Assembly (NCBI GenBank): GCA_903873475.1
Contig: CAIQON010000062.1
Coordinates: 1-37,702 of the forward strand
Direction: 5' to 3'
DNA from: an uncultured bacterium
GTDB taxonomy: Bacteria > Pseudomonadota > Gammaproteobacteria > Burkholderiales > CAIKXV01
Length of the DNA: 37,702 bases
A model generated the notes under the pieces. The model was given only the letters and a program-made list of their open reading frames with translations. It made no database searches and was not told the DNA's origin. The translations under genes were made by a program, and so were the position numbers. Positions 926-36,608 of this stretch are shown piece after piece; positions within the stretch are counted from its first letter, which is position 1; each line of letters starts with the position of its first letter.

Positions 926-2209
926 ATGGCAGTGACGAAGAAGATACCGGGCAAGCGCAGGGCGGCGTCGGGGCCGGCCAGGCCGCGCGAGCCGCACATG
1001 CAGCGCATGGAAGACCAGCGCTGGCTGGTCGATGCGACGATCCGCTCGGTCGGCGTCGAGTGGGACCAGCCACGGCTGAACAGCTATGGCACCGCCTGCG
1101 GCCCACTCGCCTCCGGCGACCTGGCTGCGGTGCGTGCGCGCGTCCAGAAGTACAGCGACATCAACCCGGCCTTCGAGGGCGTCGCCCGCCGGCGCGAGGC
1201 AGTTGCGAAGAAGGCCGAAGCTGCAGGCCATGAGGCCACCGCGCGCGACAACTGGTTCATCGCCTCGGTGTTCTGGGCCGCGTCGCAGTGGACGCTGCTG
1301 TCCAACGATGCGCACAACCTCGCGAACAACGTGCGCAAGCGCGAGTGCTTCGAGGCCTACGCGAAGAACGCCGACCATATTGTCGAGGCGGCGTGGATCC
1401 CGCTGCCCGGCGGTGGCCGCCTGCCCGGCTGGTTGCACCTGCCGCATGACTATCGCGGTGGCAAGGTGCCGGCGATCGTGTCGATTCCCGGCATGGACGG
1501 CTTCAAGGAAGCCAACGTTGCGCTGGCCGGCGACCGCTGGCTGTCGCGTGGCATCGCGGTGCTGGTGCTGGAAGGGCCGGGCCAGTACGAGGCGGTCCTC
1601 GGTGGCGTGCCCTTCAGCATGGACGCCTGGAAGGCGACCGGCAAGGCAGCCTACGAATGGATGAAGGCACGCAGCGAAGTCGATCCGACGCGCATCGGCA
1701 TCATCGGCAACAGCTTCGGCTCGTTCTTCGCGACGCTCGCCGCCGCCTGGGAGCCGCGCTACTGCGCTGCCGCGATCACCTCGATCTGCCTCGAGCCCGC
1801 CGGCGAGACCATCTTCCAGAAGGCGTCCCCGACGTTCAAGCATCGCTTCATGTACATGTCGGGCTTCACCGACGAGGCGAGCTTCGACCGCATGCGCAAG
1901 ACGATGACGCTCGAGCCGCATGCGAAGCGCATCCGCGTGCCCTTCCTGTGCGTGGCCGGCGAGCGCGACGAACTGTGCCCGGTCGAATGGGCCTACCGTA
2001 CGCTCGATGCGATGCGCGGCCCGACGCAGCTGATGGTGTACCAGGAGTCCCGGCACTCGGTCGGCAACGTGCCCTCCACCGTGCTCGGCCCCAATCCGCC
2101 GTCGATGAGCGCCGACTGGATGCTCGATCGCCTGAACGGCGTTCCCTTCGAAAGCGCTCGCCTGTTCGTCGAGGCGAACGGCAACGTCGTCACGAGGAAC
2201 ACGCCATGA
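926..2209 (+). CDS. FrsA-like alpha/beta hydrolase
   Basis: A 427-residue cytoplasmic alpha/beta hydrolase with a long helical N-terminal region (about 1-150) and a catalytic domain after it. This architecture is typical of the FrsA/2,6-dihydroxypseudooxynicotine hydrolase group, which cleaves esters or C-C bonds of 1,3-diketone-like compounds. The nucleophile is Ser263 in GNSFGS; likely partners are Asp348 (GERDEL) and His377 (ESRHSVG). The start is set at 926 because AGGGGA ends 5 nt upstream; in-frame codons further up (ATG at 908 and beyond) lack this support. It overlaps the following Bug gene by 4 nt (ATGA), so the two are probably co-translated and may act on one imported compound. The substrate is unknown. 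Confidence 0.85.
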   Translation: MAVTKKIPGKRRAASGPARPREPHMQRMEDQRWLVDATIRSVGVEWDQPRLNSYGTACGPLASGDLAAVRARVQKYSDINPAFEGVARRREAVAKKAEAAGHEATARDNWFIASVFWAASQWTLLSNDAHNLANNVRKRECFEAYAKNADHIVEAAWIPLPGGGRLPGWLHLPHDYRGGKVPAIVSIPGMDGFKEANVALAGDRWLSRGIAVLVLEGPGQYEAVLGGVPFSMDAWKATGKAAYEWMKARSEVDPTRIGIIGNSFGSFFATLAAAWEPRYCAAAITSICLEPAGETIFQKASPTFKHRFMYMSGFTDEASFDRMRKTMTLEPHAKRIRVPFLCVAGERDELCPVEWAYRTLDAMRGPTQLMVYQESRHSVGNVPSTVLGPNPPSMSADWMLDRLNGVPFESARLFVEANGNVVTRNTP

Positions 2210-3201
2210 ATCGAGGAATGATCGTCCGTTCGCTGTTCACTGCAGTGCTGGGCAGCACGCTGCTTGCGGCCGCGAGCGCGAGTGTCGCCCAGTCCGCCTT
2301 TCCGGCCCGGCCGGTGCGCATCATCGTCACCTTTTCCGCGGGCGGTGCGGCGGACTTCACGGCCCGCGTGGTCGGCGAGCGCCTGAGCGAACTCTGGAAG
2401 CAGCCGGTGGTGGTCGAGAACCGTATCGGAGCCGGCGGCAACATCGGCGTCGAGGCGGTCGTGCGTGCAACGCCCGATGGACATACGCTGCTGCTCGCGT
2501 CTTCTGCGCAGCCGATCAATGTCGCGCTGTATCCGAAGCTGTCCTTCGACCTGTTCAAGGACCTCACGCCGGTGGCGCTGGTCACGGTGTCGCCGATGGC
2601 GCTGGCCGTGAACCCTAAGGTGAAGGAGACCGACCTGCGCGCGTTCACCGCGAACATGCGCGCCAACCCGGGCAAGCTGTCCTACGCCACCTGCGGCGTG
2701 GCCACCTCGCATCACTTCGCGTTCGAGCTGTACAAGATCCAGGCGAAGCTGTCGGCGTTGCACATCCCCTACCGCGGCTGCGCCGCGGCGGTGGCGGACG
2801 CAGCCGGCGGGCAGGTCGAGACGGTGATGTCTTCGCTGAACACGCTGCTGCCGCATCAGGCTTCCGGCCGCCTCAAGGTACTGGCGATCACCTCGCGCGA
2901 TCGTTCCGCGTCGGCGCCGGACGTGCCGACGTTCCGGGAGTCGGGCGTGCCCGAGCTCAAGGACTACGCCAGCAGCGTGTACTACGGCTTCATGGTGCCG
3001 TCGGCGACGCCGCGCGACATCGCGGCGAAGATCGAGGGTGACCTGCGCACGGTGATGGCGCTGCCCGACGTGGCGAAGCGGGTGTCCGGCGGCGGCCTGG
3101 AGGTAGCCTTCGCCAGCGGCAATGAAATGGGTGCGCTGATGCGCGCCGATGCAGAGCAGCTGCGCAGGATCGTCGAGGTCGCGGGCATCAAGCCCGAGTG
3201 A
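2206..3201 (+). CDS. Bug/TctC-family periplasmic solute-binding protein
   Basis: A 331-residue protein with a signal peptide (charged N-terminus, hydrophobic core, cleavage near ASVAQS) followed by the family opening FPARPVRIIVTFSAGG. Later family marks are VVVENRIGAGGNIG and IPYRG. Bug proteins bind small carboxylates or amides in the periplasm; many have no dedicated TctAB membrane subunits, and none is seen here. The ATG overlaps the stop of the hydrolase gene, so the two form an operon. An internal ATG at 2218 is a weaker alternative, since it has no spaced ribosome site. The family is certain; the ligand is not. Confidence 0.9.
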   Translation: MNRGMIVRSLFTAVLGSTLLAAASASVAQSAFPARPVRIIVTFSAGGAADFTARVVGERLSELWKQPVVVENRIGAGGNIGVEAVVRATPDGHTLLLASSAQPINVALYPKLSFDLFKDLTPVALVTVSPMALAVNPKVKETDLRAFTANMRANPGKLSYATCGVATSHHFAFELYKIQAKLSALHIPYRGCAAAVADAAGGQVETVMSSLNTLLPHQASGRLKVLAITSRDRSASAPDVPTFRESGVPELKDYASSVYYGFMVPSATPRDIAAKIEGDLRTVMALPDVAKRVSGGGLEVAFASGNEMGALMRADAEQLRRIVEVAGIKPE

Positions 3202-6272: not shown

Positions 6273-7729
6273 GGCAGGGAGTAGGTCTTGACCGTGGTGA
6301 AACTGCGGCAGCATTCCTGTACGCCTTCCTTGACGCCGGTGCCCGAGTCCTTGATGCCGCCGAAGGGCGTCACCTCCAGGCGGTATCCGGGGACTTCCCA
6401 GATGTTCACCGACCCGACCTGCAGTTCGCGCACGAACCGCATGATGTCGTCGAGCCGATTGGTACAGACGCCGGAGGACAGGCCGAACGCCGTCGAATTG
6501 ACCTTGGCGATGGCGTCGTCGACGTTCGTGAAGGTCATGATCGGGGACACCGGACCGAAGGTCTCTTCGCGCACCAGTTCCATGTCGCCGCTGACCCGGT
6601 CGAGCAGGGTCGGCGAGTAGGATGCACCGCTGCGCAGGTTTCCGTGCAGCAGGCGTGCACCGCGCGCCACCGCGTCGGCGACGCGGCGCTCGAACAGCAT
6701 CGCCGCACGTTCATCGATGACGGTACCCATGTCGACTTCCGGGTCGAGCGGATCGCCATGGCGGAAATTGCGGGTGATGTCGACCATTGCCTCGGTGAAC
6801 GGCTCGACGATGCGCTCATGGACGAAGATGCGCTTGACCGCCGTGCAGCGCTGGCCCGAGTTGCGGTACGACCCGCTCGCAGCCAGAGCCGCGGCGCGGC
6901 CGATGTCTGCGTCGTCCATGACCACCAGCGGATCGTTGCCCCCGAGTTCCAGCACCTGGCGGCGATAGCCGGCCCGGGCGGCGATCCTGCGGCCCACGGC
7001 TACCCCGCCGGTGAACGTGATCAGTTCGGCGCAGGGGTTGTCGATCATCTCGTCGCCGATCTCGGCCGGGTCACCCGTGACCACGCTGAGCATCTGCGGC
7101 GGCAGGCCGGCCTCGTAGAGCAGGTCGGCGAGCAGGAGGGCGGAAAGCGGCGTCTTCTCGCTGGGCTTGAGCACCATCCGGTTGTTGGTGGCCACCGCCG
7201 GCGCGACCTTGTGGATCACCTGGTTGAGCGGATGGTTGAACGGCGTGATCGCCGAAATGACGCCGAGCAGAGGCTCGCGCATCGTGTGCACCCGGCGTGA
7301 ACGCCCGTGCGCGGTCACGTCGCACGAGAACGACTGACCGTCGTCGAGCAGGGCCTGTTGCGCCGCGAACAGCAGCACGTCGCTGGCCCTGCCCACTTCA
7401 TAGAGCGAATCCCGGATGCACAGCCCCGACTCGAGCGTGATGGTTCGCGCGATCGCGTCGCGCCGCTCGGCGACCAGCGCCGCCGTGCGCGACAGGATCG
7501 TGTTGCGTTCGTGCCTGCTGAGTACCGGCACGTAGCGGTGGGCGATGGCGAAGGCATGGCGCACCTGGTCGACCGTCGCGCGCGGCACGGTGGCGATCAC
7601 CTCTCCCGTCCAGGGATAGCGCACCTCGATCACACGGTCCGAGTGCACGCGCTCGCCCGCGATCCGCATCGCTTCAACCGACGAGGGGCTGCCCGGGCTG
7701 CCCACCGTCTCGGCGCGTACCCCCGTCAT
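6266..7729 (-). CDS. phnY: Phosphonoacetaldehyde dehydrogenase
   Basis: A 487-residue aldehyde dehydrogenase with catalytic Cys295 (SGQRCTA) and general base Glu261 (LELGGN). The stretches around GVISAITPFNHPLNQV and the C-terminal end VKTYSLPW match the phosphonate-specific subfamily that oxidises phosphonoacetaldehyde to phosphonoacetate with NAD+. Arg114, His166 and Arg294 appear to correspond to the phosphonate-binding residues described for the Sinorhizobium meliloti enzyme; this is from memory of that work. The start is placed at the ATG that overlaps the HD gene's stop (ATGA), because the upstream extension is antisense-like sequence. Phosphonoacetate hydrolase (PhnA) and the transaminase PhnW are not in the window, so they must be elsewhere or be replaced. 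Confidence 0.88.
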   Translation of the reverse strand: MTGVRAETVGSPGSPSSVEAMRIAGERVHSDRVIEVRYPWTGEVIATVPRATVDQVRHAFAIAHRYVPVLSRHERNTILSRTAALVAERRDAIARTITLESGLCIRDSLYEVGRASDVLLFAAQQALLDDGQSFSCDVTAHGRSRRVHTMREPLLGVISAITPFNHPLNQVIHKVAPAVATNNRMVLKPSEKTPLSALLLADLLYEAGLPPQMLSVVTGDPAEIGDEMIDNPCAELITFTGGVAVGRRIAARAGYRRQVLELGGNDPLVVMDDADIGRAAALAASGSYRNSGQRCTAVKRIFVHERIVEPFTEAMVDITRNFRHGDPLDPEVDMGTVIDERAAMLFERRVADAVARGARLLHGNLRSGASYSPTLLDRVSGDMELVREETFGPVSPIMTFTNVDDAIAKVNSTAFGLSSGVCTNRLDDIMRFVRELQVGSVNIWEVPGYRLEVTPFGGIKDSGTGVKEGVQECCRSFTTVKTYSLPW

Positions 7730-8428: not shown

Positions 8429-9613
8429 ATGAAACACAAGGCAGGTGATGCGCGACTGGTCGCGATCCTGGGCACCGCGCAGACCCTCGGCTGGGCGTCC
8501 TCGTACTATCTGCCCGCGATGCTGGCCGAACCCATGGCGGCCGACCTCGGCGTCAGCCCGGTCACTGTATTCGCTGCCTTCTCGCTCGCGTTGCTGGTGT
8601 CCGCGCTCGTCGGGCCGCTCGCTGGCCGGAAGATCGACGTCGGCGGCGGTCGGCCGGTCCTGGCGGCTGCCAGCCTGGTGTTCGCCGGCGGTCTCGTCGT
8701 GCTTGCGCTGGCCCAGGGTCCGATCGGGCTGTTCCTCGGCTGGGCGGTGATCGGACTGGCGATGGGCTCCGGCCTGTACGAGGCCGCCTTCTCGACCCTC
8801 GTGCGCCTCAGGGGCAGCGACGCGCGGGCCACGATCACCGGCATCACGTTGATCGCAGGGTTCGCCAGTACCGTCGGCTGGCCACTGTCTGCCGTGATGG
8901 AGGCGCACCTGGGCTGGCGCGGCGCCTGCATCGGATGGGCGCTGCTGCACCTCGTCGTGGGCCTGCCGCTGAACCTGTCGCTGCCCCGCGCCACCCGCGT
9001 CGTCCGTGCCACCCCCGATGCGCAGGCACAGCCCGTGCCGGACACCGGAGCGGTGCCCGTACCGGGGGCAGCGCTGGCTGCGGTGCTTCTGGCCTTCGTG
9101 TTCGCCGTGACCTGGTTCATCAGCACTGCGATGGCCGCGCACCTGCCCCGCCTGCTGCAGGATGCAGGCGCCTCGCTGGCGATGGCGGTGGCGCTGGGTG
9201 CGATCGTCGGCCCAGCCCAGGTCGCGGCGCGGCTGCTCGAGTTCGGCTTCCTGCGCCATGTGCATCCGCTGCTCTCGGCGCGGTTGGCCGCGCTCGCCCA
9301 CCCGCTGGGCGTCGTGCTCATGGCAGCCGGGGGTGCCGCGTTCGCGCCGGCGTTCGTGCTGCTTCACGGTGCAGGCAACGGCATCCTCACCATCGCCAAG
9401 GGCACGCTGCCGCTGGTGCTGTTCGGCCCCCAGGGCTACGGCCTGCGCCAGGGATGGCTGACCCTGCCGGCACGCCTGTCGCAGGCCATCGCCCCGCTCG
9501 CGTTCGGCGCGGCCATCGACCGCTGGGGGGCTGGCGCACTCTGGCTGTCCGCCTTCCTGGGTGCCGCGGCCCTGGGTGCCCTGCTGCTGATGCCGAAGGT
9601 AGCCCCGCGCTGA
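8429..9613 (+). CDS. Major facilitator superfamily transporter
   Basis: A 394-residue integral membrane protein with about twelve hydrophobic segments arranged as two six-helix halves. The central loop at about 190-215 is rich in Pro, Ala and Arg. The loop after helix 2 carries GPLAGRKIDVGGGR, a variant of the MFS motif A. It is divergent from the HD oxygenase and lies 95 bp upstream of phnC. It may move a phosphonate, or a product of its breakdown, across the inner membrane. Substrate and direction cannot be told from sequence. It does not look like GlpT or UhpT, which are longer organophosphate antiporters, so assignment to the phosphonate regulon rests only on position. Confidence 0.8.
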   Translation: MKHKAGDARLVAILGTAQTLGWASSYYLPAMLAEPMAADLGVSPVTVFAAFSLALLVSALVGPLAGRKIDVGGGRPVLAAASLVFAGGLVVLALAQGPIGLFLGWAVIGLAMGSGLYEAAFSTLVRLRGSDARATITGITLIAGFASTVGWPLSAVMEAHLGWRGACIGWALLHLVVGLPLNLSLPRATRVVRATPDAQAQPVPDTGAVPVPGAALAAVLLAFVFAVTWFISTAMAAHLPRLLQDAGASLAMAVALGAIVGPAQVAARLLEFGFLRHVHPLLSARLAALAHPLGVVLMAAGGAAFAPAFVLLHGAGNGILTIAKGTLPLVLFGPQGYGLRQGWLTLPARLSQAIAPLAFGAAIDRWGAGALWLSAFLGAAALGALLLMPKVAPR

Positions 9614-9637
9614 ATGCAGCGGGTGCCCGGTACGGCG

Positions 9638-9682
9638 CTGACACATAACTGTCCCGGTCCTGTCACGAACGGTTGCTACCTT
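9638..9682 (+). promoter_or_regulatory. Pho box array and promoter of the phnCDE operon
   Basis: Three direct 7-bp half-sites occur with perfect 4-bp spacers: CTGACAC (9638-9644), CTGTCCC (9649-9655) and CTGTCAC (9660-9666). The PhoB consensus half-site is CTGTCAT/C, repeated every 11 bp. A -10-like TACCTT (9677-9682) begins 10 nt after the last half-site, as in PhoB-activated promoters where the box replaces the -35. The phnC start is 27 nt further on. The repeats are seen directly; control by PhoB under phosphate limitation follows from the known motif. Confidence 0.8.
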
Positions 9683-9708
9683 GCGCCTCTTACTGACGGA
9701 GACAGGCA

Positions 9709-10527
9709 ATGCTCGAGATCCAGCAGATTGGTAAAGCGTTCGGAAAAGTTCACGCGCTGAAGTCCGTGAGCCTCGAGATCCCGCAGGGCCAGATGGTCGG
9801 GATCATCGGCCGGTCCGGCGCAGGCAAGTCGACGCTGCTGCGCATGATCAATCGCCTTGCCGAACCCACCTCGGGAACGATTACCTGGAAGGGCGAGGCG
9901 GTCAGCGCGCTCCGTGGCAGGGCCCTGCTGCAGTGGCGTGCGCGCTGCGCGATGATCTTCCAGCAGTTCAATCTCGTACCGCGCCTGGACGTGATCACCA
10001 ACGTGCTGCTGGGTTGCGTGTCCCGTCACGGCACCCTGCCTTCCCTGGTCAAGCGCTTCACCGAGGCGGAGCGGGCCATGGCCGTGCTGGCGCTGGAGCG
10101 GCTCGACTGCGCGCATCTGGCGCTGCAGCGCGCCGAGACCCTGTCTGGCGGCCAGCAGCAGCGCGTGGCGATCGCGCGCGCGATGATGCAGGACCCGGAC
10201 ATCCTGCTGGCCGACGAGCCGATCGCCTCGCTCGATCCGCGCAGCGCCATCCAGGTGATGCAGGCCCTGCGCTCGATCAACCGCGACGATGGCATCACGG
10301 TGATCTGCAACCTGCACACCCTCGACACCGCGCGCCAGTACTGCGACCGGATCGTCGGTATCGCCAGCGGTGAAGTGCTGTTCGACGGCGGGCCGGCCGA
10401 ACTCACCACTGAAACGGTGCGCCGCATCTATGGCGTCGAGGGTGACGCGGCCGGGTTCGACGAATCCGCGACCTCCACCGCGGCTGGATTCGAGCCGCCC
10501 GCGGTGGCCCAGGCCGCAGCCGCCTGA
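9709..10527 (+). CDS. phnC: Phosphonate ABC transporter ATP-binding protein
   Basis: A 272-residue ABC ATPase that powers phosphonate import with PhnD and PhnE. Walker A is GRSGAGKST (34-42), the signature LSGGQQ starts at residue 145, and Walker B LLADEP lies near 166-171. The sequence style ([27 protein letters not shown]) is that of PhnC. GGAGA lies 7 nt before the ATG. The C-terminus carries an extra Ala/Pro-rich tail of about 25 residues after the usual PhnC end, without a recognisable domain. It is the first gene of the operon behind the Pho-box promoter and is followed after 41 nt by phnD. Confidence 0.95.
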
Positions 10528-10568
10528 TCCGCCCCCCCATACCTCAACACCCACAGGGAGAAGTTCCA

Positions 10569-11486
10569 ATGTTCGCAAGCAACCGCCTCCTGGCCGCAGG
10601 CCTGCTCGGCATCGGCGTGGCGCTGTCGTCCGCCGCCAGCCACGCACAGGAGTGGAAGAAGAAGTATCCGGTGGTCGGCTTCAGTTCCGTGAGTTCCGAG
10701 AACCAGTCGGCGACCCAGGCCCGATTCAAGCAGCTGGCCGATGTGTTCCGGGAGAAGCTCGGCGTCGAGCTGCGTATCTACACCGCCACCGACTACGCTG
10801 GCACCGTGCAGGCGCTGACGTCGGGGCAGATCCAGATGGCGCAGGTCGGTGCGAGCGCCTACGCCTCGGCCTGGATCGATTCCAACGGCCAGGTCGAGCC
10901 GCTGGTGACCAACCAGGAAGTCGACGGTTCGCTCGGCTATCACTCGATACTCATCGTCAAGGCGGACAGCCCGTTCAAGCGCCTCGAGGATCTGAAGGGC
11001 CGGTCGCTCGCCTGGGCCGATCCCAACTCCACGTCCGGCTTCCTGATTCCGCTCGTTTCGCTGCGCGCCATCGGTATCGAGCCCGACAAGTTCTTCAGCA
11101 AGACGCTGTTCTCGGGTGGCCATGAGCAGAGCGTGCTCGGCGTCATCAACAGTCAGTTCGACTCCAGCTTCACCTGGTCGTCGAAGGGCCACAACGCCGG
11201 CCAGATCCGCGCGATGGTTGACCGCGGTGTGCTCAAGATGGATCAGTTCCGGGTCATCTGGGAGTCGCCGCTGATCCCGAATCCGCTGGTGGTCGTGCGC
11301 AAGGATCTCCCGGCCGACATGCGCCGCGACCTGCTCGCGTTCTGGACCGACCTGGCCAAGACGCATCCGCAGATCGCCGAACTGGCCGCGCGCGGCAAGA
11401 CCGCCGGTTTCGTCCCGGCTACACACGAGATGTACAAGCCGGTGCTCGATGCCGCGCTCGAAGTGCGCAAGAACCGGAAACGCTGA
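10569..11486 (+). CDS. phnD: Phosphonate ABC transporter periplasmic binding protein
   Basis: A 305-residue PhnD-family binding protein. A signal peptide with cleavage near SHAQE is followed by YPVVGFSSVSSENQSAT, then the ligand-domain marks SGQIQMAQVG, LAWADPNSTSGFLIP and FSGGHEQSVLGV. It captures phosphonates, or related phosphorus compounds, in the periplasm for PhnE/PhnC. A GGGAG ribosome site lies shortly before the start. It is intact and full length. One base after its stop a second, broken copy begins, so this gene is probably the working binding protein of the operon. Confidence 0.95.
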   Translation: MFASNRLLAAGLLGIGVALSSAASHAQEWKKKYPVVGFSSVSSENQSATQARFKQLADVFREKLGVELRIYTATDYAGTVQALTSGQIQMAQVGASAYASAWIDSNGQVEPLVTNQEVDGSLGYHSILIVKADSPFKRLEDLKGRSLAWADPNSTSGFLIPLVSLRAIGIEPDKFFSKTLFSGGHEQSVLGVINSQFDSSFTWSSKGHNAGQIRAMVDRGVLKMDQFRVIWESPLIPNPLVVVRKDLPADMRRDLLAFWTDLAKTHPQIAELAARGKTAGFVPATHEMYKPVLDAALEVRKNRKR

Positions 11487-11487
11487 C

Positions 11488-12398
11488 GTGAGGCTCGCCT
11501 GGATCGCAGCGCCGCTGCTCGCCCTGCTCGCCGCGTCCGCCTCGGCACAGGACTGGCGGGTGAAGTACCCGGTGGTTTCCATGAGCGCGGTCAGCTCCGA
11601 AAGCCAGGGGGCCACCGAGGCGCGCTTCAAGGACTTTGCCAAGGTCTTCAAGGATCGCTTCGGGGTCGAGTTGCGCATCCACATCGCCTCGAGCTACTCG
11701 GGCACGATCCAGGCGCTCACGTCCGGACAGATCCAGTTCGCCAATCTCGGCCCCGCGGCCTATGCGGCGGCGTGGATCGATTCCGACGGTGGCGTCGAGC
11801 CGCTGGCGGCGGCAAAGGAGGTCGATGGCGATGTCGGCTATCACTCGCACCTGATCGTGCGCTCCGACTCGCCCTTCCAGAAGCTCGAGGACCTGAAGGG
11901 GCGCAGCCTCGCCTGGGCCGATCCGAACTCGGCTTCGGGCTACCTGATCCCTCTGGTTGCGTTGCGCGCCACCGGCATCGAAGCGACGAAGCACTTCGGG
12001 CGCACCGTGTTCTCCGGCGGCCATGAACAGAGCGCCCTGGGCGTGGTCAACGGCCAGTTCGACAGCGCCTTCGTGTTCGGGGCGCGCGACCCGCTCGCGC
12101 GCGGCGTGCTGCACATGATGGCCCAGCGCGGCGTGCTCGATACCATACCAGCCGGCTGCGCGTCGTCTGGCGCTCGCCCTTGATCCCCGGGTCGCCGGTC
12201 ACCGTCCGCAAGGACCTGCCGGCGGACATGAAGCGCGACATCCAGAAGCTGTTCGTCGACCTGTACTCGCTCGATCCCCGCATGGCCGAGATCGTCGCGC
12301 GCGGCAAGACGCAGGGCTATGTACCGGTCACTCATGAGATGTACCAGCCATTGCTCGATGCGGTACAGGAGCAACGGCGCATGCGGCGGAAAGGGTGA
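11488..12398 (+). pseudogene. phnD: Second phnD copy, interrupted by a 5-bp tandem duplication
   Basis: A PhnD paralogue starting at GTG 11488, with its own signal peptide (cleavage near ASAQD) and the family marks SGQIQFANLG, LAWADPNSASGYLIP and FSGGHEQSALGV. After GVLDT the frame runs into TGA at 12181-12183, while the true C-terminal part (RVVWRSPLIPGSPVTVRKD to RRKG, ending 12398) continues in another frame. The break coincides with a direct repeat ATACC-ATACC (12140-12149). Removing one copy restores an uninterrupted frame whose spacing matches the intact PhnD exactly (nine residues from GVL to Trp in both). It is therefore a recent frameshift, a phase-variable site, or a sequencing error. 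The truncated product (231 residues) would lack the last quarter of the fold. Close similarity to the neighbour indicates tandem duplication with divergence. Confidence 0.85.
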
Positions 12399-12400
12399 CC

Positions 12401-13279
12401 ATGGCCACCACGGCTACCGGGCTGGAAGCAGTACGCGCGTTCGAGTCGAACTGGCGGGCGTTGCAGGTGCGCAAGCGCTGGCTCACGCTCGGCTACGGCC
12501 TCGTGTTCGCCGCCGTGTTTGCCGCGTCGGCATGGGTCGGCGAGTTCAACCTGGTGAAGCTGTTCCAGGGGCTGCCGCGCATCCATGAGTATGTTGCCAA
12601 GACCCTTCCGGTACTGACCCTCGAAAACTTCTGGGGCGATCTGTCCGAATGGTTCTACGGCCTTCCCAAGTGGCTCATGCTGCTCTGGGAGACCATCCTG
12701 ATCGCCTACATCGCCACGCTGCTGGGCACGCTGGGCGCCCTTGCCCTGTGCTTCCACGCGGCGCGCAACCTGTCGCGCGGTGGCACCAGCTACTGGATCG
12801 CCCGGCGCGTGTTCGAGGTCGCCCGTACCATCCCGGAGCTGGTGTTCGCTCTGGTGTTCGTGTTCGCCTTCGGCATCGGGCCGCTGGCCGGCATCCTGGC
12901 CATCGCCATCCATTCCATGGGGGGGAGCGGCAAGCTGTTCGCCGAAGCGGTGGAGAACATCGACATGAAACCGGTGGACGGCCTGCGCGCAACCGGCGCG
13001 AACTGGGTCCAGACCATCCGTTTTGCGGTGCTTCCCCAGGTGCTGCCGAACTTCACATCCTTCAGCCTGTGGCGCTTCGAGATCAACGTGCGCTCGGCTT
13101 CCATCATCGGCTTCGTCGGCGCTGGCGGCATCGGCCAGGAGTTCTACACGGCCATCAGCCGCCTCTACTACGAAGACATCAGCGCACTGATCATCCTCAT
13201 GGTCGGTACCGTGATCCTGATCGACATGGTGTGCGAGCGGGTGCGGCATCGCCTGATCGGCAAGGAGGGTTTCGCATGA
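12401..13279 (+). CDS. phnE: Phosphonate ABC transporter permease (first copy)
   Basis: A 292-residue inner-membrane permease with about six hydrophobic segments and the binding-protein-dependent EAA loop (EAVENIDMKPVDGLRATGA) that contacts the ATPase. FGIGPLAGILAIAIHS and IIGFVGAGGIGQE are PhnE hallmarks. The ATG at 12401 follows an AAGG six bases upstream; a GTG at 12395 in the same frame overlaps the preceding stop and is an alternative. It pairs with the second PhnE to form the heterodimeric channel, as in other phn operons that carry two phnE genes. Confidence 0.93.
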   Translation: MATTATGLEAVRAFESNWRALQVRKRWLTLGYGLVFAAVFAASAWVGEFNLVKLFQGLPRIHEYVAKTLPVLTLENFWGDLSEWFYGLPKWLMLLWETILIAYIATLLGTLGALALCFHAARNLSRGGTSYWIARRVFEVARTIPELVFALVFVFAFGIGPLAGILAIAIHSMGGSGKLFAEAVENIDMKPVDGLRATGANWVQTIRFAVLPQVLPNFTSFSLWRFEINVRSASIIGFVGAGGIGQEFYTAISRLYYEDISALIILMVGTVILIDMVCERVRHRLIGKEGFA

Positions 13280-14148
13280 CCCCGCGTATCTCCGGAATCG
13301 ATGCGGCGGCCATCGCGCGCGCGCGCGCGATCAGCCCCGGTGCCTTCGAGCGTCCCCTGCGCGAGCGGATTCCCGGGCTCGCGGCGGGTGCACTGTTCGT
13401 GGCGCTCACCGCCTACTGCATCGTGCTGTTCGAAATGTCGCCTGTGCGCCTGTGGGCAGGCTTCGGCAAGCTGCTGGAAGTGGTCGGGCAGATGTTCCCC
13501 CCCACCGCCAAGGGCGCAGCGCTCGACTATGCGTACGCGATGTTGCAGACGGTGGCGATGGCGCTGATCGGAACGGTCATCGCTGCGGTGCTCGCGGTAC
13601 CACTGGGATTCGCCTGCGCACGAAACATGGTGCCCGGGTGGATCGTCCGCTTCGTGTTCCGGCGCTCCAGCGACATGCTGCGTGGCGTCGACCAGCTGGT
13701 CTGGGCGCTGATCTTCGTGCGCGCGGTCGGCCTCGGCCCGCTGGCCGGTATCCTGGCGATCATCATCGCCGACACCGGAACCCTCGCGAAGCTGTACTCC
13801 GAGGCGATCGAGAACATCGACCGCAAGCCGGTCGAAGGGCTTCGGGCGTCGGGCGCGAGCCCGGTGCAGACTATGCGCTTCGGCGTGATCCCGCAGGTGC
13901 TGCCGATCATGCTGTCGAACATCCTGTACATCTTCGAGTCGAACACGCGCTCCGCGACCATCCTCGGCATCGTCGGCGCCGGCGGCATCGGATTCTTCCT
14001 TGCGGACCGCATCCGGACGATGCTGTGGGAGGAAGCCTGCTTCATCATGCTGATGATCCTCGGCACGGTGTACGTCATCGACTGGTGCTCGAAGCGCCTG
14101 CGCGCGAAGATCACCGGCGGTACGGACACGCCCACCGTCATCCATTGA
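13276..14148 (+). CDS. phnE: Phosphonate ABC transporter permease (second copy)
   Basis: A 290-residue PhnE-family permease overlapping the first by ATGA, with AAGGAGG seven bases before its start. The long open frame continues much further upstream, but that part is antisense-like; the true N-terminus is MTPRISGIDA. It has about six membrane segments, an EAA loop (EAIENIDRKPVEGLRASGA) and the ATILGIVGAGGIGFF motif. It differs clearly from the first copy, so the pair probably forms an obligate heterodimer rather than being redundant. Confidence 0.93.
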   Translation: MTPRISGIDAAAIARARAISPGAFERPLRERIPGLAAGALFVALTAYCIVLFEMSPVRLWAGFGKLLEVVGQMFPPTAKGAALDYAYAMLQTVAMALIGTVIAAVLAVPLGFACARNMVPGWIVRFVFRRSSDMLRGVDQLVWALIFVRAVGLGPLAGILAIIIADTGTLAKLYSEAIENIDRKPVEGLRASGASPVQTMRFGVIPQVLPIMLSNILYIFESNTRSATILGIVGAGGIGFFLADRIRTMLWEEACFIMLMILGTVYVIDWCSKRLRAKITGGTDTPTVIH

Positions 14149-14158
14149 CCGCCTGCGC

Positions 14159-15652
14159 GTGAATCACGGGCGGCCGAACGTCCTGCTGGTCGTCATCGAC
14201 CAGCTGCGCGCCGACGCGCTGGGCTGCATGGGCAGCCCCTGCGCGCACACGCCGAACATCGACCGGCTGGCAAGGCGTGGCGTCCTTTTCGCGAGGCACC
14301 ATGCCCAGGGCGCGCCGTGCGGGCCGAGCCGTGCATCGATGGCGACTGGCCAGTATCAGATGAGCCACCGGGTGGTCAACAACGAGACGCCGACGGCGGC
14401 CCACCTGAAGACCCTGCCCTGGTTCCTGCGCGAAGCCGGATATGAACCGGCGCTGGTCGGGTACACCACGACGCTGCCGGACCTGCGTGCGTTGCACCCC
14501 GGCCTGGCCCGGCCGCGCACGCATTCGATCGCGGCCGGATGGGACGTCGTGAGGGACTTCGAAGGCGATCGACGGCACTACCTGGCCTGGCTTTCAGGGC
14601 AGGGCTATTCCGTGGGCCCGGACTATGCCGAGCTGTTCCGCTGCGCCGAGACCGTCGGCGATGCCAGCCGCTTCCCAGCCGCGCCGATCGCGGCCGAACA
14701 TACCGACACCGCCTGGTGCGCCGATGGCGCGCTCGACTACCTCCGCGTCCGCGCCGGGCGTCCCTGGTTCCTGCAGCTCGGGTTCTTCCGGCCACATCCG
14801 CCGTTCATGGCGACGGCCCCCTTCGACGCGCTGATCGATCCGGGCCGGATCCCGCCGCCCGTGCGAGCGGCGAGCGTGGCGCATGAAGCGGCGGTCCATC
14901 CACTGAACCGGCTGCTGCTCGAAACGCTCAGGGCCGGCACGTCCGTGACCGGCATGGCGGGGCTGTCCTGCGACGTCTCGCCCGACGACCTGCGCCGCAT
15001 CGCCGCTGCCTATCACGGCCTGCTGGCCGAAGTCGACCACCATCTCGGGCGCGTGCTCGACCATCTCGACGCGACCGGGCAGTCCGACCATACGCTGGTG
15101 ATCCTCACCTCCGATCACGCCGAGCAGCTGGGCGACCATCATCTGCTGAGCAAGCGCGGCTACTACCCGTCCTCGTACCACGTGCCGTGCATCGTGGCCG
15201 ATCCGCGGCGTGAGGCGGATGCGACGCGCGGCAGCACGGTCACCGCCTTCAGCGAGAACGTCGACCTGCTGCCGACCATCCTCGACTGGCTCGGCCAGCC
15301 GATCCCCGAACAGTGCGATGGACGTTCGCTGCTCGCGTTCCTGCGCGGCGCGGTGCCCTCAGGCTGGCGCAGGGAGGCGCGCTGGGAGTACGACTTCCGC
15401 GATCTCGCCGGCGGGAAGGCGCCATTGCTGCTCGGTATCGCGCGCCACCAGTGCAGCCTCGCGGTCATCCGCGACGCCGACTACGCCTACGTGCACTTTG
15501 CCGCGCTGCCGCCGCTGCTGTTCGATCTGCGCCAGGACCCCGCCTGGCTGGTGAACAGGGCCGATGATCCCGCGTTGCGCGACGTGGCGCTGGACATGGC
15601 CAGGCGCATGCTCGACTGGCGCCTCGCCCACGCCGACCGCACGCTGACCTGA
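14159..15652 (+). CDS. Phosphonate monoester hydrolase/arylsulfatase-like enzyme
   Basis: A 497-residue alkaline-phosphatase-superfamily hydrolase starting at GTG. The nucleophile motif CGPSR (Cys54-Arg58) fits a formylglycine-generating C-x-P-S-R site. The metal ligands Asp14 (VVIDQ) and Asp319-His320 (TSDHAEQLGDH) are present. The overall pattern resembles phosphonate monoester hydrolases (PehA type) more than secreted sulfatases. There is no signal peptide, so it should act in the cytoplasm on imported esters, freeing a phosphonate for C-P lyase. It lies 10 bp behind the second phnE, so it is the last gene of the Pho-controlled import operon. A sulfatase or phosphodiesterase activity is the alternative. 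Cys54 must be converted to formylglycine by a separate enzyme, not seen here. Confidence 0.8.
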   Translation: MNHGRPNVLLVVIDQLRADALGCMGSPCAHTPNIDRLARRGVLFARHHAQGAPCGPSRASMATGQYQMSHRVVNNETPTAAHLKTLPWFLREAGYEPALVGYTTTLPDLRALHPGLARPRTHSIAAGWDVVRDFEGDRRHYLAWLSGQGYSVGPDYAELFRCAETVGDASRFPAAPIAAEHTDTAWCADGALDYLRVRAGRPWFLQLGFFRPHPPFMATAPFDALIDPGRIPPPVRAASVAHEAAVHPLNRLLLETLRAGTSVTGMAGLSCDVSPDDLRRIAAAYHGLLAEVDHHLGRVLDHLDATGQSDHTLVILTSDHAEQLGDHHLLSKRGYYPSSYHVPCIVADPRREADATRGSTVTAFSENVDLLPTILDWLGQPIPEQCDGRSLLAFLRGAVPSGWRREARWEYDFRDLAGGKAPLLLGIARHQCSLAVIRDADYAYVHFAALPPLLFDLRQDPAWLVNRADDPALRDVALDMARRMLDWRLAHADRTLT

Positions 15653-15673
15653 CACCCGTCCGTTCGCCAGGCT

Positions 15674-15697
15674 GCGTACGCCGACACCGGCGTACGC
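15674..15697. terminator. Strong hairpin between convergent phn operons
   Basis: A perfect 10-bp inverted repeat, GCGTACGCCG and CGGCGTACGC, with the 4-base loop ACAC. It sits in the 63-bp gap between the convergent hydrolase and phnM genes. No T-run follows on either strand, but the position and stability suit a bidirectional transcription stop. Confidence 0.6.
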
Positions 15698-15715
15698 CCC
15701 AGCGAGGCAGGTCGA

Positions 15716-16873
15716 TCAGACCACGCGGCGGCCCGATCGCCAGACCGCGCGCACCACCGGGTGCATGCGGCCTGCCTGCCCTTCGACCAGCCTGACCTGT
15801 ACGAGGTCGGCCCGCTTGCCAACGGCGATCTCGCCCCGATCGTCGAGTGCGACCGAGCGGGCCGGGTTGCGGGTCACCAGGTTGACGGCCTGCGGAATGT
15901 CGAACCCGGCATCGTCGACAAGGCGAAACGCGGCCATCAGCAGGCTCACCGGGATGTAGTCCGAGGACAGGATGTCGAGCAGGCCGAGCCTCGCCAGTTC
16001 GATCGCAGCCACGTTGCCCGAATGCGAGCCGCCGCGCACCACGTTCGGGGCGCCCATGAGCACCGACATGCCGAAGGCGTTCGCCGCCCGGGCCGAGGCT
16101 TCCCGGGTCGGGAACTCGCAGATGGCAACGCCGTCGGCATGTGCTTCGTCGACGTGTTCGAGCAGCGTGTCGTCATGGCTGGCCAGCGCGATCGCGCGCT
16201 GCTTCGCGTATTCGACGAAGTGCCTGCGGTGCGGGGCGGCGTAGCGTTCCTGCACATGCTTCGCATTGACCACCTGCGCCTCGAACTTCGCGTCCGACCA
16301 TCCCTTCTTGCCCGTGTAGTAGATGCGTGCCTGCTCGAGGTTCTCCCACTGGCGCTGGCCGGGCGTGTGGTCCATCAGCGAGATCAGGCCGACGCGCGGA
16401 TGGTCGATGAAGGGCTCGAACAGCGACAGGGTGTTGGCCGCCGCCAGTTCGCAGCGAACGTGCAGCAGGTGCTCCACGCGCAGCAGGTCGGCCGCGCTGG
16501 CGCTGTCGATCATCTCGACCACCTCGGCCCAGCCCTGGCCGCGCAACGCCTCTTCATCGATGTCGCCCACGCCCAGCGAGTCGTAGACCGTCGTGATGCC
16601 GGAGGCGGCCAGTTCGGCGTCATGCGCGAACAGCGCGGGCAGTGCCGGCCAGCGTACCTTCGGACGCGGCATCAGGTGCCGTTCGAAATTGTCGGTATGC
16701 AGTTCGACCAGGCCCGGGATCAGGAAGTCGCCATCGATGTCCTGCGTGGCCGAGACGCCGGTGCCTCCGGCGGCAATCGCCGCGATGCTGCCCCCGGCCA
16801 CCGCCAGCGTGCCCTGCACCACCTCGTCGCCGAGCACGAGCCGGGCACTCTTGAATACCATGTCACTGTTCAT
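15716..16873 (-). CDS. phnM: Alpha-D-ribose 1-methylphosphonate 5-triphosphate diphosphatase
   Basis: A 385-residue amidohydrolase-fold protein with the metal-binding opening GLVELHTDNFERH, followed by SLMDHTPGQRQW, LASHDDTLLEHV and VMGAPN-type motifs (VLMGAPNVVRGGSHSGN) of PhnM. It removes pyrophosphate from the ribose triphosphate phosphonate made by PhnGHIL, before C-P cleavage by PhnJ. The start ATG overlaps the phnL stop (ATGA). It is the last gene of the phnGHIJKLM operon and ends just before a strong hairpin. Confidence 0.95.
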   Translation of the reverse strand: MNSDMVFKSARLVLGDEVVQGTLAVAGGSIAAIAAGGTGVSATQDIDGDFLIPGLVELHTDNFERHLMPRPKVRWPALPALFAHDAELAASGITTVYDSLGVGDIDEEALRGQGWAEVVEMIDSASAADLLRVEHLLHVRCELAAANTLSLFEPFIDHPRVGLISLMDHTPGQRQWENLEQARIYYTGKKGWSDAKFEAQVVNAKHVQERYAAPHRRHFVEYAKQRAIALASHDDTLLEHVDEAHADGVAICEFPTREASARAANAFGMSVLMGAPNVVRGGSHSGNVAAIELARLGLLDILSSDYIPVSLLMAAFRLVDDAGFDIPQAVNLVTRNPARSVALDDRGEIAVGKRADLVQVRLVEGQAGRMHPVVRAVWRSGRRVV

Positions 16874-17622
16874 CTTGACCCCGGTCCTGGCTGGAAGCAG
16901 TCCATGTCGAGAACGCGCGTGGCGACCTGCTCTCGGATGTGGGCATCGTGGAAGATCCCGATCACGGTCGTCCCGCGCTTTCGTACCTCGTTGATCAGTG
17001 CCACGACGGTCGCGCTGTTGCTGGCGTCGAGCGATGCGGTCGGCTCGTCGAGCAGCAGCACCGGCCAGTCACGCACGAAGCTGCGCGCGAGGTTGATGCG
17101 TTGCTGCTCGCCGCCGGAGAAGGTGGCGGGCGCCACGTGCCACAGGCGCTGCGGTATGCGCAGGCGCAGCAGCAGGTCCTGCGCCTGCCGGTGCGCGTCG
17201 CGCAGTGCGTCGGAGTCTGCCCCCGTACCGGCCAGCAGCGGTTCAGCCACCACGTCGAGCGAACCCACGCGCGGCACGGTACGCAGGAACTGGCTGACAT
17301 AGCCGATCGTCGAGCGGCGCACGGCCAGCAGGGTCTGCGCACTGGCATGGGTCATGTCGACCTCGGCCCCGGCCTGCACGCCGTCGTCGTGCTGCACGTG
17401 GATCGATCCGGTGCTGGCGCGATAGTTCGCATAGATCAGCTTGAGCAGCGTGCTCTTGCCTGCGCCCGAAGGCCCGTCCAGGGCGATGCATTCGCCGCGG
17501 AAGGCTTCGAACGCAACGCCTTCCAGGACGGGCAGTTCGATGCCGCCCTGGTTGTGCAGGACGAACCGCTTGGACAGGCCGGATACCCGCAGCAGGGGCT
17601 TCATGGCAGCGGCGGGCATCAT
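16870..17622 (-). CDS. phnL: C-P lyase complex ABC-type protein PhnL
   Basis: A 250-residue ABC ATPase homologue that is part of the C-P lyase machinery, not of a transporter. Walker A is GPSGAGKST, the signature FSGGEQQR, and Walker B LLLDEPTASLD. The stretch YVSQFLRTVPRVGSLDVVAEPL is typical of PhnL. It is required with PhnGHI for displacing adenine from ATP by a phosphonate. The ATG at 17622 overlaps the phnK stop; MKPLL at 17604 is a possible alternative start. It overlaps phnM by 4 nt. Confidence 0.95.
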   Translation of the reverse strand: MMPAAAMKPLLRVSGLSKRFVLHNQGGIELPVLEGVAFEAFRGECIALDGPSGAGKSTLLKLIYANYRASTGSIHVQHDDGVQAGAEVDMTHASAQTLLAVRRSTIGYVSQFLRTVPRVGSLDVVAEPLLAGTGADSDALRDAHRQAQDLLLRLRIPQRLWHVAPATFSGGEQQRINLARSFVRDWPVLLLDEPTASLDASNSATVVALINEVRKRGTTVIGIFHDAHIREQVATRVLDMDCFQPGPGSR

Positions 17623-18398
17623 GGCTGCAGCACCGAGGACACCAGCAACTGCGTGTACGGGTGCTGGGGATCGTCGAGGACCTGGTCGGTCAGGCCGGTC
17701 TCCACGACGCGGCCCTCCTTCATCACCATCATGCGGTGCGCCAGCAGACGCGCCACGGCCAGGTCGTGCGTGACCACGATCGCCGCCAGCGACAGGCCGC
17801 GGGTGAGCGTGCGCAGCAGGTCGAGCAGCTTGGCCTGGACGCTCACGTCCAGGCCAGAGGTGGGCTCGTCCATGAACACCAGCCGGGGCCGGGTGACCAG
17901 GTTGCGCGCAATCTGCAGGCGCTGGCGCATGCCGCCGGAGAAGGTGGCAGGCGTGTCGTCGATCCGTCCGGCGTCCATCTCGACCCGCTGCAGCCAGTTC
18001 GCCGCCTCGGTGCGGATGCGGCCGTAGTGGCGCTCGCCCAGGGCCATCAGGCGCTCGCCGACATTCGCCCCGGCGGAGACGTTCATGCGCAGCCCCTGCA
18101 CTGCATCCTGGTGCACGTAACCCCAGTCGGTACGGGCCAGCAAGCGGCGCTGGGCCTCGGACATCGAATACACGTCGACCATGCCATCGTGCCGGGTCAT
18201 GAATTCGACGCGGCCGGCATCCGGCTTAACGCGCGCCGCGACCGCATTGAGCAGTGTCGTCTTGCCCGAGCCGGACTCGCCGACCACCGCGAGCACCTCG
18301 CCCGGCCACAGGTCGAACGAGACATCGTCCACGGCCCGGCGGGCACCGTAGTGCATGGTGACGCCCTGGACGCGAAGAAGCGGTGGGTTAGCGGTCAT
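17619..18398 (-). CDS. phnK: C-P lyase complex ABC-type protein PhnK
   Basis: A 259-residue ABC ATPase homologue with Walker A GESGSGKTT, signature FSGGMRQR and Walker B VFMDEPTSGLDVSVQ. PhnK docks on the PhnGHIJ core near PhnJ. The start is set at MTANPPLLRV because it overlaps the phnJ stop by 11 nt; an upstream in-frame extension lies inside phnJ and is not needed. The C-terminus DDPQHPYTQLLVSSVLQP is the normal family end. It overlaps phnL by 4 nt. Confidence 0.95.
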   Translation of the reverse strand: MTANPPLLRVQGVTMHYGARRAVDDVSFDLWPGEVLAVVGESGSGKTTLLNAVAARVKPDAGRVEFMTRHDGMVDVYSMSEAQRRLLARTDWGYVHQDAVQGLRMNVSAGANVGERLMALGERHYGRIRTEAANWLQRVEMDAGRIDDTPATFSGGMRQRLQIARNLVTRPRLVFMDEPTSGLDVSVQAKLLDLLRTLTRGLSLAAIVVTHDLAVARLLAHRMMVMKEGRVVETGLTDQVLDDPQHPYTQLLVSSVLQP

Positions 18399-19260
18399 CG
18401 TCCTGCCTGTTGAGTCTGCAATGATCGGTGTCGGAACAGACGAACATGTGCCCACCGCTGTCGTCGGTGATCACCTCGTCCAGGAAGCTGTCGGTCGCAC
18501 CGCACAGCGCGCACGGTTCCGTCCAGCGCTGCACCTCGAACGGGTGGTCGTCGAAGGCGAGGCTCTCGACGCTGGTCCAGGGCGGTATCGCGTAGATGCG
18601 CTTCTCGCGCCCGGCCCCGAACAGCTGCAGGGCCGGGTTCATGTGCATCTTCGGGTTGTCGAACTTCGGGATCGGCGACGGCGCCATCAGGTACCGACCA
18701 TCGACCATCACGGGATAGTCGTAGGTGGTGGCGATATGGCCGAAGCGTGCGATGTCCTCGTAGAGCTTCACGTGCATCAGCCCGTAGTCGGCCAGCCCGT
18801 GCATCACGCGTGTCTCGGCCTCGCGCGGCTCCAGCTTCTGCAGTGGCTCCGGCAACGGTACCTGGTAGACGATGACCTGCCCGTCCTGCAGCGGCGTCTC
18901 GGGGATGCGGTGCCGGGTCTGGATGATCGTCGCCTCGGTCGTGACCGAGGTAACCGCTACCGCCGTCGTACGCTGGAAGAAGCGCCGGATATTCACGGCG
19001 TTGACGGTGTCGTCGGCGCCCTGGTCGATCACCTTGAGCACATCGGCGGGCCCGATGATGGATGCAGTCACCTGGATGCCGCCGGTACCCCAACCGTAGG
19101 GCAGGGGCATCTCGCGTGAACCGAACGGCACCTGGTAGCCCGGGATCGCCACCGCCTTCAGGATCGCGCGGCGGATCATCCGCTTCGTGCGTTCGTCCAG
19201 GTAGGCGAAGTTGAAGTTCGCATCGCGCTCGACGGGCGGCGGCAGGTCGCTGATCTTCAT
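18388..19260 (-). CDS. phnJ: Alpha-D-ribose 1-methylphosphonate 5-phosphate C-P lyase
   Basis: A 290-residue radical-SAM-type enzyme that splits the carbon-phosphorus bond. The four cysteines of the iron-sulfur and thiyl-radical site are present: Cys250 and Cys253 (CALC), Cys275 and Cys281 (CSDTDHC). Gly41 in AIPGYQVPFGSRE corresponds to the glycyl-radical Gly32 of the E. coli enzyme. The start MKISDLPPP overlaps the phnI stop by ATGA. Sequence identity to the E. coli protein looks very high through PKFDNPKMHM and LQLFGAGREKRIYA. All key residues are intact, so the pathway should be functional. Confidence 0.97.
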   Translation of the reverse strand: MKISDLPPPVERDANFNFAYLDERTKRMIRRAILKAVAIPGYQVPFGSREMPLPYGWGTGGIQVTASIIGPADVLKVIDQGADDTVNAVNIRRFFQRTTAVAVTSVTTEATIIQTRHRIPETPLQDGQVIVYQVPLPEPLQKLEPREAETRVMHGLADYGLMHVKLYEDIARFGHIATTYDYPVMVDGRYLMAPSPIPKFDNPKMHMNPALQLFGAGREKRIYAIPPWTSVESLAFDDHPFEVQRWTEPCALCGATDSFLDEVITDDSGGHMFVCSDTDHCRLNRQDDDR

Positions 19261-20348
19261 GCCGCCTCCGCGCCGGATGCCGGCATGGTTGCGCGCATCT
19301 TGCGCACCAGTTCGAGTTCCGACTGGAAGTCGACGTAATGGGGCAGCTTCAGGTGCTGCACGAAACCGGAGGCTTCGAGGTTGTCGGTGTGCGAGAGCAC
19401 GAACTCCTGCATCTGGGCGGGCGAATCGGCGGCCTCGCCGAGTTCGGTGGCGCGTAGCGCCCGGTCGACCAGTGCCATGCCCATGGCCTTGCGCTCGCTG
19501 GCGCCGAAGGCGAGCCCGTAGCCGCGCGTGAACTTCGGCGGCTCGGTCTTCGACCCGGCGAACTGGTTGACCATCTGGCATTCGGTGATCTCGATCTCCC
19601 CGATCGACACCGGGAAGCCCAGTTCCTCGGGCTCGATCTCGACGTCGACCAGCCCGAAGCGGATCTCCCCGGCGAACGGGTGCGAGTTCGCATAGCCGCG
19701 CTGCGTCGAGTAACCCATCGCGAGCAGGAAGCCCTCGTCGCCGCGCGCGAGGTTCTGCAGCCGTGCGGCACGGTCTGCGGGGAAGCTGATGGGCACGCGG
19801 GTGAGGTCGACCGGCTCCGGATCGCCAGGCGAGGGTTCATGGCTTTCGATGAGCCCCTCGTTGCCGAGCAGGTCGACCACGCGGGGTACCGACCCTGCCT
19901 CAGCCTGCACCGGAGTCTCGGGTGCTGCCTGTGCCTCGCCCGAGGCCGCCAGCGTGAAGTCGAGCAGGCGCTGGGTGTAGTCGTAGGTGGGTCCCAGGAC
20001 CTGCCCGCCGGGCAGGTCCTTGAACGTGGCCGAGATCCTTCGCCACAGGCGCATGTCGGCGGTGTCCAGCGGCAGTGCATAACCGAGCCTGGGCAACGTG
20101 GCGCGATAGGCCCTGAGCAGGAAGATCGCTTCCACGAGGTCACCGGCGGCCTGCTTGATCGCCAGCGCGGCCAGTTCCGGATCGTAGACCGACCCCTCGC
20201 ACATCACGCGATCGACCGACAGCCGCAACTGCTGCTGGATCTGATCCAGGGTCAATTCCGGCACCGAGGCATCGCCGCGGCGCGCCTGCGCGAGCAGCGC
20301 ATAGGAATTGAGGATTGCGCGTTCGCCACCCTTGACTGCAACGTACAC
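19257..20348 (-). CDS. phnI: C-P lyase core subunit PhnI (nucleosidase)
   Basis: A 363-residue PhnI. The real start is a GTG at 20348, giving the family N-terminus YVAVKGGERAI; the upstream ATG-led extension is out of family and lies in phnH. Conserved marks include LLAQARRGD, LLAMGYSTQRGYANSHPFAGEIR and SHTDNLEASGFVQHLKLPHYVDFQSEL. With PhnGHL it couples the phosphonate to the ribose of ATP. It begins one base after the phnH stop and overlaps phnJ by 4 nt. Confidence 0.95.
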   Translation of the reverse strand: MYVAVKGGERAILNSYALLAQARRGDASVPELTLDQIQQQLRLSVDRVMCEGSVYDPELAALAIKQAAGDLVEAIFLLRAYRATLPRLGYALPLDTADMRLWRRISATFKDLPGGQVLGPTYDYTQRLLDFTLAASGEAQAAPETPVQAEAGSVPRVVDLLGNEGLIESHEPSPGDPEPVDLTRVPISFPADRAARLQNLARGDEGFLLAMGYSTQRGYANSHPFAGEIRFGLVDVEIEPEELGFPVSIGEIEITECQMVNQFAGSKTEPPKFTRGYGLAFGASERKAMGMALVDRALRATELGEAADSPAQMQEFVLSHTDNLEASGFVQHLKLPHYVDFQSELELVRKMRATMPASGAEAA

Positions 20349-20349
20349 G

Positions 20350-20961
20350 TCAGCCTTCCAGCCGCGTCGTGCGCGGCAGTGCAGCCAGCGCGTCGGCGCT
20401 GGCGAAGAACACATCGACACCGCAGGGGAAGCCGGCACGGTTCTCGGCCCACTGGCTGGCGAACGTGTCGCCGATGCCTTCGGCCGAAAGCCATGCACGG
20501 TCCTGGATGCCCGGGCCGGACAGGCTCCAGCCGCTGCCGGCCGTCAAGGCGGTGCATTGCACGACCAGGGTGGCCGAGCGGTCCGGATACGATTCGCTGC
20601 CGGCACCGAAGTGCGCGAGGGGCGGCAGGTCGGCGCCGCTGGCGGCGAGTACGAAGTCGGCCGACTCCGGCGCATCAACGATCGTGCATCCGGTGTGGAA
20701 ACGCAGGAAGGCGCCTGCGTTGCCGCCGCGAAGCGCGGGCGACAGCCAGAGCCGCGTATCCTGATCGAGCAGCGCAAGCAGGATGGCCGCAGCGGGGCGA
20801 TGCATCCCGGCAGGAGCGGACAGGAGCACCGACGGTTCCACTGTGATCACCTTCCCTGGATGCGACAGCGCATCCAGGCAATGGCGGAAGACCGTCTGGC
20901 TGCCGAACGAGGCATCGTCGAATCCGGCGGCGAGCCCGGACAGATCGAGCGTGGTATTCAT
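20350..20961 (-). CDS. phnH: C-P lyase core subunit PhnH
   Basis: A 203-residue PhnH with the family openings LSGLAAGFDDASFGSQTVFR and LDALSHPGKV, and the C-terminal GVDVFFASADALAALPR. PhnH is a core structural member of PhnGHIJ with a PLP-transferase-like fold that lacks the cofactor. The start MNTTLDLSGL overlaps the phnG stop by ATGA; the longer open frame is antisense-like sequence of phnG. The phnI start follows one base after its end, so coupling is tight. Confidence 0.94.
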   Translation of the reverse strand: MNTTLDLSGLAAGFDDASFGSQTVFRHCLDALSHPGKVITVEPSVLLSAPAGMHRPAAAILLALLDQDTRLWLSPALRGGNAGAFLRFHTGCTIVDAPESADFVLAASGADLPPLAHFGAGSESYPDRSATLVVQCTALTAGSGWSLSGPGIQDRAWLSAEGIGDTFASQWAENRAGFPCGVDVFFASADALAALPRTTRLEG

Positions 20962-21425
20962 GCGCCGGCCTCCCGCGCGACGGTGAAGAACTCGACGCGT
21001 GTCGACTGTGCCTGCTGCTGCATGCGTGTGCGGGCATCTTCCGCGGAACGTTCGAGCGGTGCGACCAGCGACCGCTGCGCCGCCTCCCGATGCAGCGGTG
21101 ACTGCAGCAGTGCATCGGCGAGCGCAGCCAGTTCGGCATGCCGGTGCGAGCGGCCTCGCACATAGGCAACGCCGGTTTCTCCGGTGGCCAGGCGCAAGGC
21201 GCAGCGCGTGACGGTCACTTCGCCGAGGTTGAACCTGTCCCCGGTGCCACCGATCCTGCCGCGCAGCATGAACAGGCCCGTTTCGGGCCGGCGCAGCCAT
21301 TCGTGGGGTGCGGGTGCCAGGGCGCCGATGCCCTGCTCGAGTTGATGGAGGGGGGCACGGGCCAGAAGGCCCATCCAGTGACGTCGTCCGTTCGCATCCG
21401 GGGACCCGTCAACCGATTGCAACAT
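20958..21425 (-). CDS. phnG: C-P lyase core subunit PhnG
   Basis: A 155-residue PhnG recognised by RRHWMGLLARA, RPETGLFMLRGRIGGTGDRFNLGE, the conserved TRCALRL and GVAYVRGRSHRHAELAALADAL. It is the first gene of the C-P lyase operon. The start is uncertain: ATG at 21425 is chosen, but TTG 21443 and GTG 21431 are in frame, and no strong ribosome site is visible for any. The promoter should lie in the divergent gap shared with the DUF1045 gene, where I see no clear Pho box. Confidence 0.92.
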   Translation of the reverse strand: MLQSVDGSPDANGRRHWMGLLARAPLHQLEQGIGALAPAPHEWLRRPETGLFMLRGRIGGTGDRFNLGEVTVTRCALRLATGETGVAYVRGRSHRHAELAALADALLQSPLHREAAQRSLVAPLERSAEDARTRMQQQAQSTRVEFFTVAREAGA

Positions 21426-21488
21426 GGCCACGCTATCGTCCAATCACAAAGTGCGGTGCAACTGCCGCGCGAAAAGAATGGAGAGGTT

Positions 21489-24575: not shown

Positions 24576-24638
24576 GGGGATCCTCCGGCGATCGGATGTG
24601 CTGATCGGCGGCCGTACGGATGCGGCGCGCCGACCCCG

Positions 24639-25664: not shown

Positions 25665-25700
25665 CGTCGGGACTCCCGATCTGGCTGCGGACGGAGCGCA

Positions 25701-25788
25701 ACTATAAGCAAACTTCCTGCCCGATAGTAGGCTTTCGCGCAGGTGTGCGCGTGATGCCAACTGCGTGATGCCAAGTTGCGATCACACC
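25701..25788. promoter_or_regulatory. Divergent control region with tandem 12-bp repeats inside an inverted repeat
   Basis: GCGTGATGCCAA occurs twice, at 25749-25760 and 25763-25774, a perfect direct repeat with 14-bp period. The pair is flanked by the inverted repeat GGTGTG (25742-25747) and CACACC (25783-25788). On the minus strand a -10-like TATAGT (25706-25701) serves the Bug gene. On the plus strand TTGCGA (25776-25781), 17 nt and TAGCCT (25799-25804) may serve the aldolase gene. A shared activator or repressor site is inferred. The rest of the 190-bp gap shows nothing recognisable. Confidence 0.5.
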
Positions 25789-36556: not shown

Positions 36557-36586
36557 CGACATGCCTCTCGCGTTTCGAAGGTGCTC

Positions 36587-36592: not shown

Positions 36593-36608
36593 GCCATCGG
36601 GAGGAGGC

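Follow-up and report, generated by a model that had tools for sequence, protein, structure and literature searches.

In this genome, two genes for phosphonate-binding proteins stand side by side and the second is split across two reading frames, which raises the question of whether the break marks a gene that is switched on and off, a paralogue recently lost, or an error in the assembly. Within the window, i.e. the whole 37.7-kb stretch of DNA that was analysed, the forward strand carries a phosphonate transport operon comprising phnC (9709-10527), the ATPase of a phosphonate ABC transporter (TIGR02315, 322.9 bits, over the cut-off), phnD1 (10569-11486), an intact binding protein of 305 amino acids whose nearest solved structure is E. 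coli PhnD (3p7i, E 5e-29), phnD2 (11488-12398), the permease genes phnE1 (12401-13279; TIGR01097, 278.5 bits), which lies 3' of the lesion, and phnE2 (13276-14148; TIGR01097, 285.7 bits), and, as the last gene, a PehA-like phosphoric/sulfuric ester hydrolase (14159-15652; PF00884; NF045661, 563.7 bits, under the cut-off of 900). The C-P lyase genes phnM, L, K, J, I, H, and G follow on the opposite strand (15716-21443). No RNA families were found in the window, no promoter or terminator signals above chance were detected in 9500-15800, and a search of plasmids returned no close DNA relatives.

An earlier reading, made from the sequence alone, had placed the two phnD genes one base apart and the loss of frame in the second at an ATACC-ATACC doublet, and both observations hold. 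The TGA of phnD1 (11484-11486) is followed by a single C (11487) and by the GTG start of phnD2 (11488), whose frame stays open for 218 codons (11488-12141), up to ...RGVLD. Translation would then continue into an out-of-frame tail of 13 residues (12142-12183) and end at a premature stop (12181-12183), the corresponding open frame spanning 11449-12183. The remaining C-terminal part, 83 codons and a stop (12147-12398), lies in a frame offset by 5 bases. These N- and C-terminal parts, which we handled as separate pieces in all analyses, align column for column, with neither gap nor overlap, to both the relatives and phnD1, and the residue-for-residue fit to the paralogue that had been pointed out earlier is confirmed (GVL to Trp spans nine residues in each). 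The doublet itself is exact at 12140-12149 on the forward strand, with one additional base of period-5 identity giving an 11-bp tract, and ATACCATACC occurs once in the whole 4.53-Mb assembly. Exact 5-bp doublets are common, with 42 start positions in the window, and the repeat per se is unremarkable; judged from the alignments, it is beyond chance that it falls exactly where phnD2 has 5 bp more than every relative with the gene.

By its profile matches, phnD2 descends from the PhnD family (TIGR03431/PF12974), since its two pieces match consecutive parts of the profile (positions 9-193 with 177.9 bits and positions 213-286 with 66 bits), but it encodes no full member as it stands. In this scoring, which covered phnD1 and the two phnD2 pieces, phnD1 exceeded the TIGR03431 cut-off of 261.1 bits (269.6 bits) and neither phnD2 piece did. 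The gene order phnC-phnD1-phnD2-phnE1-phnE2 provides the neighbourhood used to recognize the family, with phnC and phnE nearby. The motif DPNSASG is found in phnD2, both in the window (11488-12398) and at loci L010-L013, vs. DPNSTSG in phnD1, L014, and E. coli PhnD, and may indicate that the second binding protein differs in its ligand preference.

Comparison with relatives establishes the direction of the change. The window is collinear with the genome G003 at 86-92% identity across nearly its full length, and a single ATACC unit within an open frame of about 290-300 codons was found in G003, G008 (locus L010), G004 (L011), and G010 (L012) within the genus, as well as in L013 and L014 beyond it, with one genome per species. 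Since no relative with the gene departs from this pattern, the 5-bp gain in phnD2 is, on this alignment evidence, derived and private to this genome; the broken frame is shared by none of them, and the intact allele has no repeat at the lesion site in any relative. The frame of phnD2 is thus broken relative to intact orthologues, as in a pseudogene. In a sample of 399 genomes from the order, phnD1 and phnD2 were found paired only in this genus, where 5 of the 11 genomes carry both, and a search of the same 399 genomes for a phnD2-type binding protein at E 1e-60 returned no match outside the genus. The loci L013 and L014, which come from another collection, also have a gene of the phnD2 type; in L015, phnC and phnE flank just one phnD. 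Across the operon, phnC and phnD1 (9700-11500) are about 3-8% diverged from G003, and phnD2 together with most of the remaining operon (11600-15700) is mostly about 7-14% diverged, a difference in which the lower values might reflect recombination or stronger constraint. The higher synonymous divergence of phnD2 (0.36-0.51 to G003, vs. about 0.19 for phnD1) was weighed as a possible sign of decay and set aside, since the remaining operon genes span values that include it.

The region downstream of the lesion is undecayed. When the window was compared to positions at which G003 and G008 agree, we counted 40 synonymous vs. 6 amino-acid-changing differences before the lesion, and after it 13 synonymous differences vs. 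2 conservative amino-acid changes (I to L and D to E); neither a stop nor another indel was seen there. The dN/dS ratio 3' of the lesion was 0.03-0.04 against both G003 and G008, so that the relaxed selection or further decay associated with pseudogenes is absent. This part is 98% identical to G008. Over the whole branch, an unselected downstream part should have gathered 18-39 amino-acid changes; the few observed therefore date the lesion to the final 16-26% of the branch (95% bound), unless it is an assembly error, which would give the same undecayed picture as a recent event. Judged from these substitution patterns, the lesion is either very young or an error. The sequence-only reading had offered a reversible switch, a fresh pseudogene, or a sequencing error, and of these proposals the freshness of the lesion is strongly supported, both by the intact, single-unit relatives and by the undecayed downstream part.

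To gauge how often such lesions occur in this assembly, we aligned 542 kb of it to 1.2 Mb of G003, obtaining 204 kb of matched sequence, and required codon-position-3 enrichment on both flanks of each candidate frameshift. This coding-filtered scan replaced an unfiltered one that was dominated by spurious open frames and gene junctions. Credible internal coding frameshifts in the 204 kb amounted to two in this genome, the 5-bp gain in phnD2 and a 1-base loss at position 4243 of contig C116, and one or two in G003; a candidate 2-base gain on contig C320 was discarded, as it sits at a gene end beside a stop codon. The loss on C116 (L131:4243) consists of one base missing beside a GGGG run; the open frame that it interrupts, about 466 codons long, is otherwise intact and lies in a stretch 98% identical to G003.

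We consider it probable that phnD2 is a nascent null allele of this paralogue, created by a slippage duplication and still young, either in this lineage or in the sampled population. The main competitor, that the organism has one unit and an intact phnD2 and that the second unit is an assembly or consensus error, is in our view unlikely, although it draws on several observations: the genome is a draft of 407 contigs with an estimated contamination of 5.73%, phnD2 is intact in every relative having the gene, nothing 3' of the lesion has decayed, and the assembly contains another lone frameshift, the 1-base loss beside a G run. Against it, coding frameshifts are rare, at a level like that of the better-assembled G003, and, in line with slippage, exact tandem differences of 6-14 bp separate this genome from G003 at other places, running in both directions. 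To our knowledge, an exact 5-bp tandem gain is also not a typical base-calling error. The rarity of frameshifts and the presence of other tandem differences thus favour, at the level of sequence comparison, a real slippage event.

Two further readings fare less well. A phase-variable contingency locus, in which gaining or losing an ATACC unit would toggle phnD2, fits the exact tandem form of the lesion and the difference of exactly one unit from the intact relatives, and the phnE gene of E. coli K-12 reverts by similar slippage; reversal by unit loss, which the sequence-only reading had proposed, is thus physically possible. The further step to a gene that switches is unsupported and, in our estimate, very unlikely: with no repeat at the site in any relative, the intact state offers no substrate for slippage, the tract of two 5-bp units is 11 bp long vs. 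about 23 bp in K-12 phnE, the assembly contains one allele only, and doublets of this size are frequent by chance. Nor was a repeat tract found that is kept and varies in number among relatives, as would be characteristic of a contingency gene, each relative, at one genome per species, having a single unit. Programmed ribosomal frameshifting or another form of recoding, through which phnD2 would yield both a short and a full product, could account for the good conservation of both frames; yet there is no conserved recoding site, because the frame is uninterrupted in relatives, a slippery run at the site was not found by eye, and we regard this reading as improbable in the extreme. What is left is an ordinary event, a very young tandem-duplication frameshift or an assembly error.

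If phnD2 is a young null allele, the following course of events can be proposed. Replication slippage would have added a further copy of a 5-bp unit to the second gene of the tandem phosphonate-binding-protein pair, shifting the frame after residue 218 and ending translation 13 residues later. In a model of the intact G008 orthologue (mean pLDDT 83, eight sequences), the part past the truncation includes strands at 222-227 and 235-239 and helices at 244-260, 262-268, and 281-300, and an alignment of phnD1 with E. coli PhnD (3p7i) places a conserved IW-SPLIP segment in the lost region. A working binding protein would not be expected from the truncated gene, since two core strands and the C-terminal helices would be missing. 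The second gene is probably a redundant paralogue, and uptake would then rest on the intact phnD1. A polar effect is also conceivable: the phnD2 stop lies 2 bases ahead of the phnE1 ATG in G008, and in this genome translation of phnE1 could drop because that of phnD2 would halt about 217 nt upstream instead of 2. Reversion by loss of one unit would be possible in principle, as in K-12 phnE. For annotation, phnD2 should not be entered as a short protein but treated as a very recent null allele or an assembly error.

The closest known parallel is E. coli K-12, whose phosphonate transporter is rendered cryptic by 8 bp inserted in phnE; selection easily yields revertants from which slippage has removed the 8 bp (PMC6469041; PMC4759930). 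In both cases, a phosphonate ABC transporter gene is silenced by a short, frame-shifting tandem duplication and related strains are intact. Yet the gene affected here encodes the binding protein instead of the permease, and the repeat consists of two 5-bp units, whereas the MG1655 phnE tract has two full copies plus 7 of the 8 bases of GCTGGCGT, i.e. about 23 bp. Likewise, the intact phnD2 allele is free of repeats while the intact K-12 allele still bears them, an intact paralogue adjoins phnD2, and restoration of the gene by loss of one unit has been proven by experiment in K-12, while the phnD2 allele is known from sequence. The K-12 phnE gene and phnD2 are two cases of different kinds and do not demonstrate recurrent silencing; the broader notion that short, revertible tandem duplications silence genes for phosphonate uptake time and again, with part of a population keeping the system off but recoverable, strikes us as exceedingly doubtful. 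At most, phnD2 would add a second natural example in which a short tandem duplication disrupts a phosphonate transporter gene, this time in another subunit and an unrelated lineage. As in simple-sequence contingency loci, the frame is set by the count of a short tandem unit, although those loci have many units that are kept across strains, and phnD2 has a second unit in this genome alone, all relatives having a single one. Compared with nascent pseudogenes of redundant paralogues, we see no difference in kind: one change breaks the frame, selection is otherwise purifying, and an intact paralogue lies next door.

Elsewhere in the window, similar long open frames at about 2200-3200, 23595-25760, 32203-33201, and 35564-36727 share about 65-72% DNA likeness with many places in G003, and resemble what we take to be tripartite tricarboxylate (Bug-type) binding proteins, a putative assignment. 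A 9-bp exact tandem doublet (GGGCTGCCC twice, 7686-7703), absent from G003, is located near the start of a long open frame on the minus strand.
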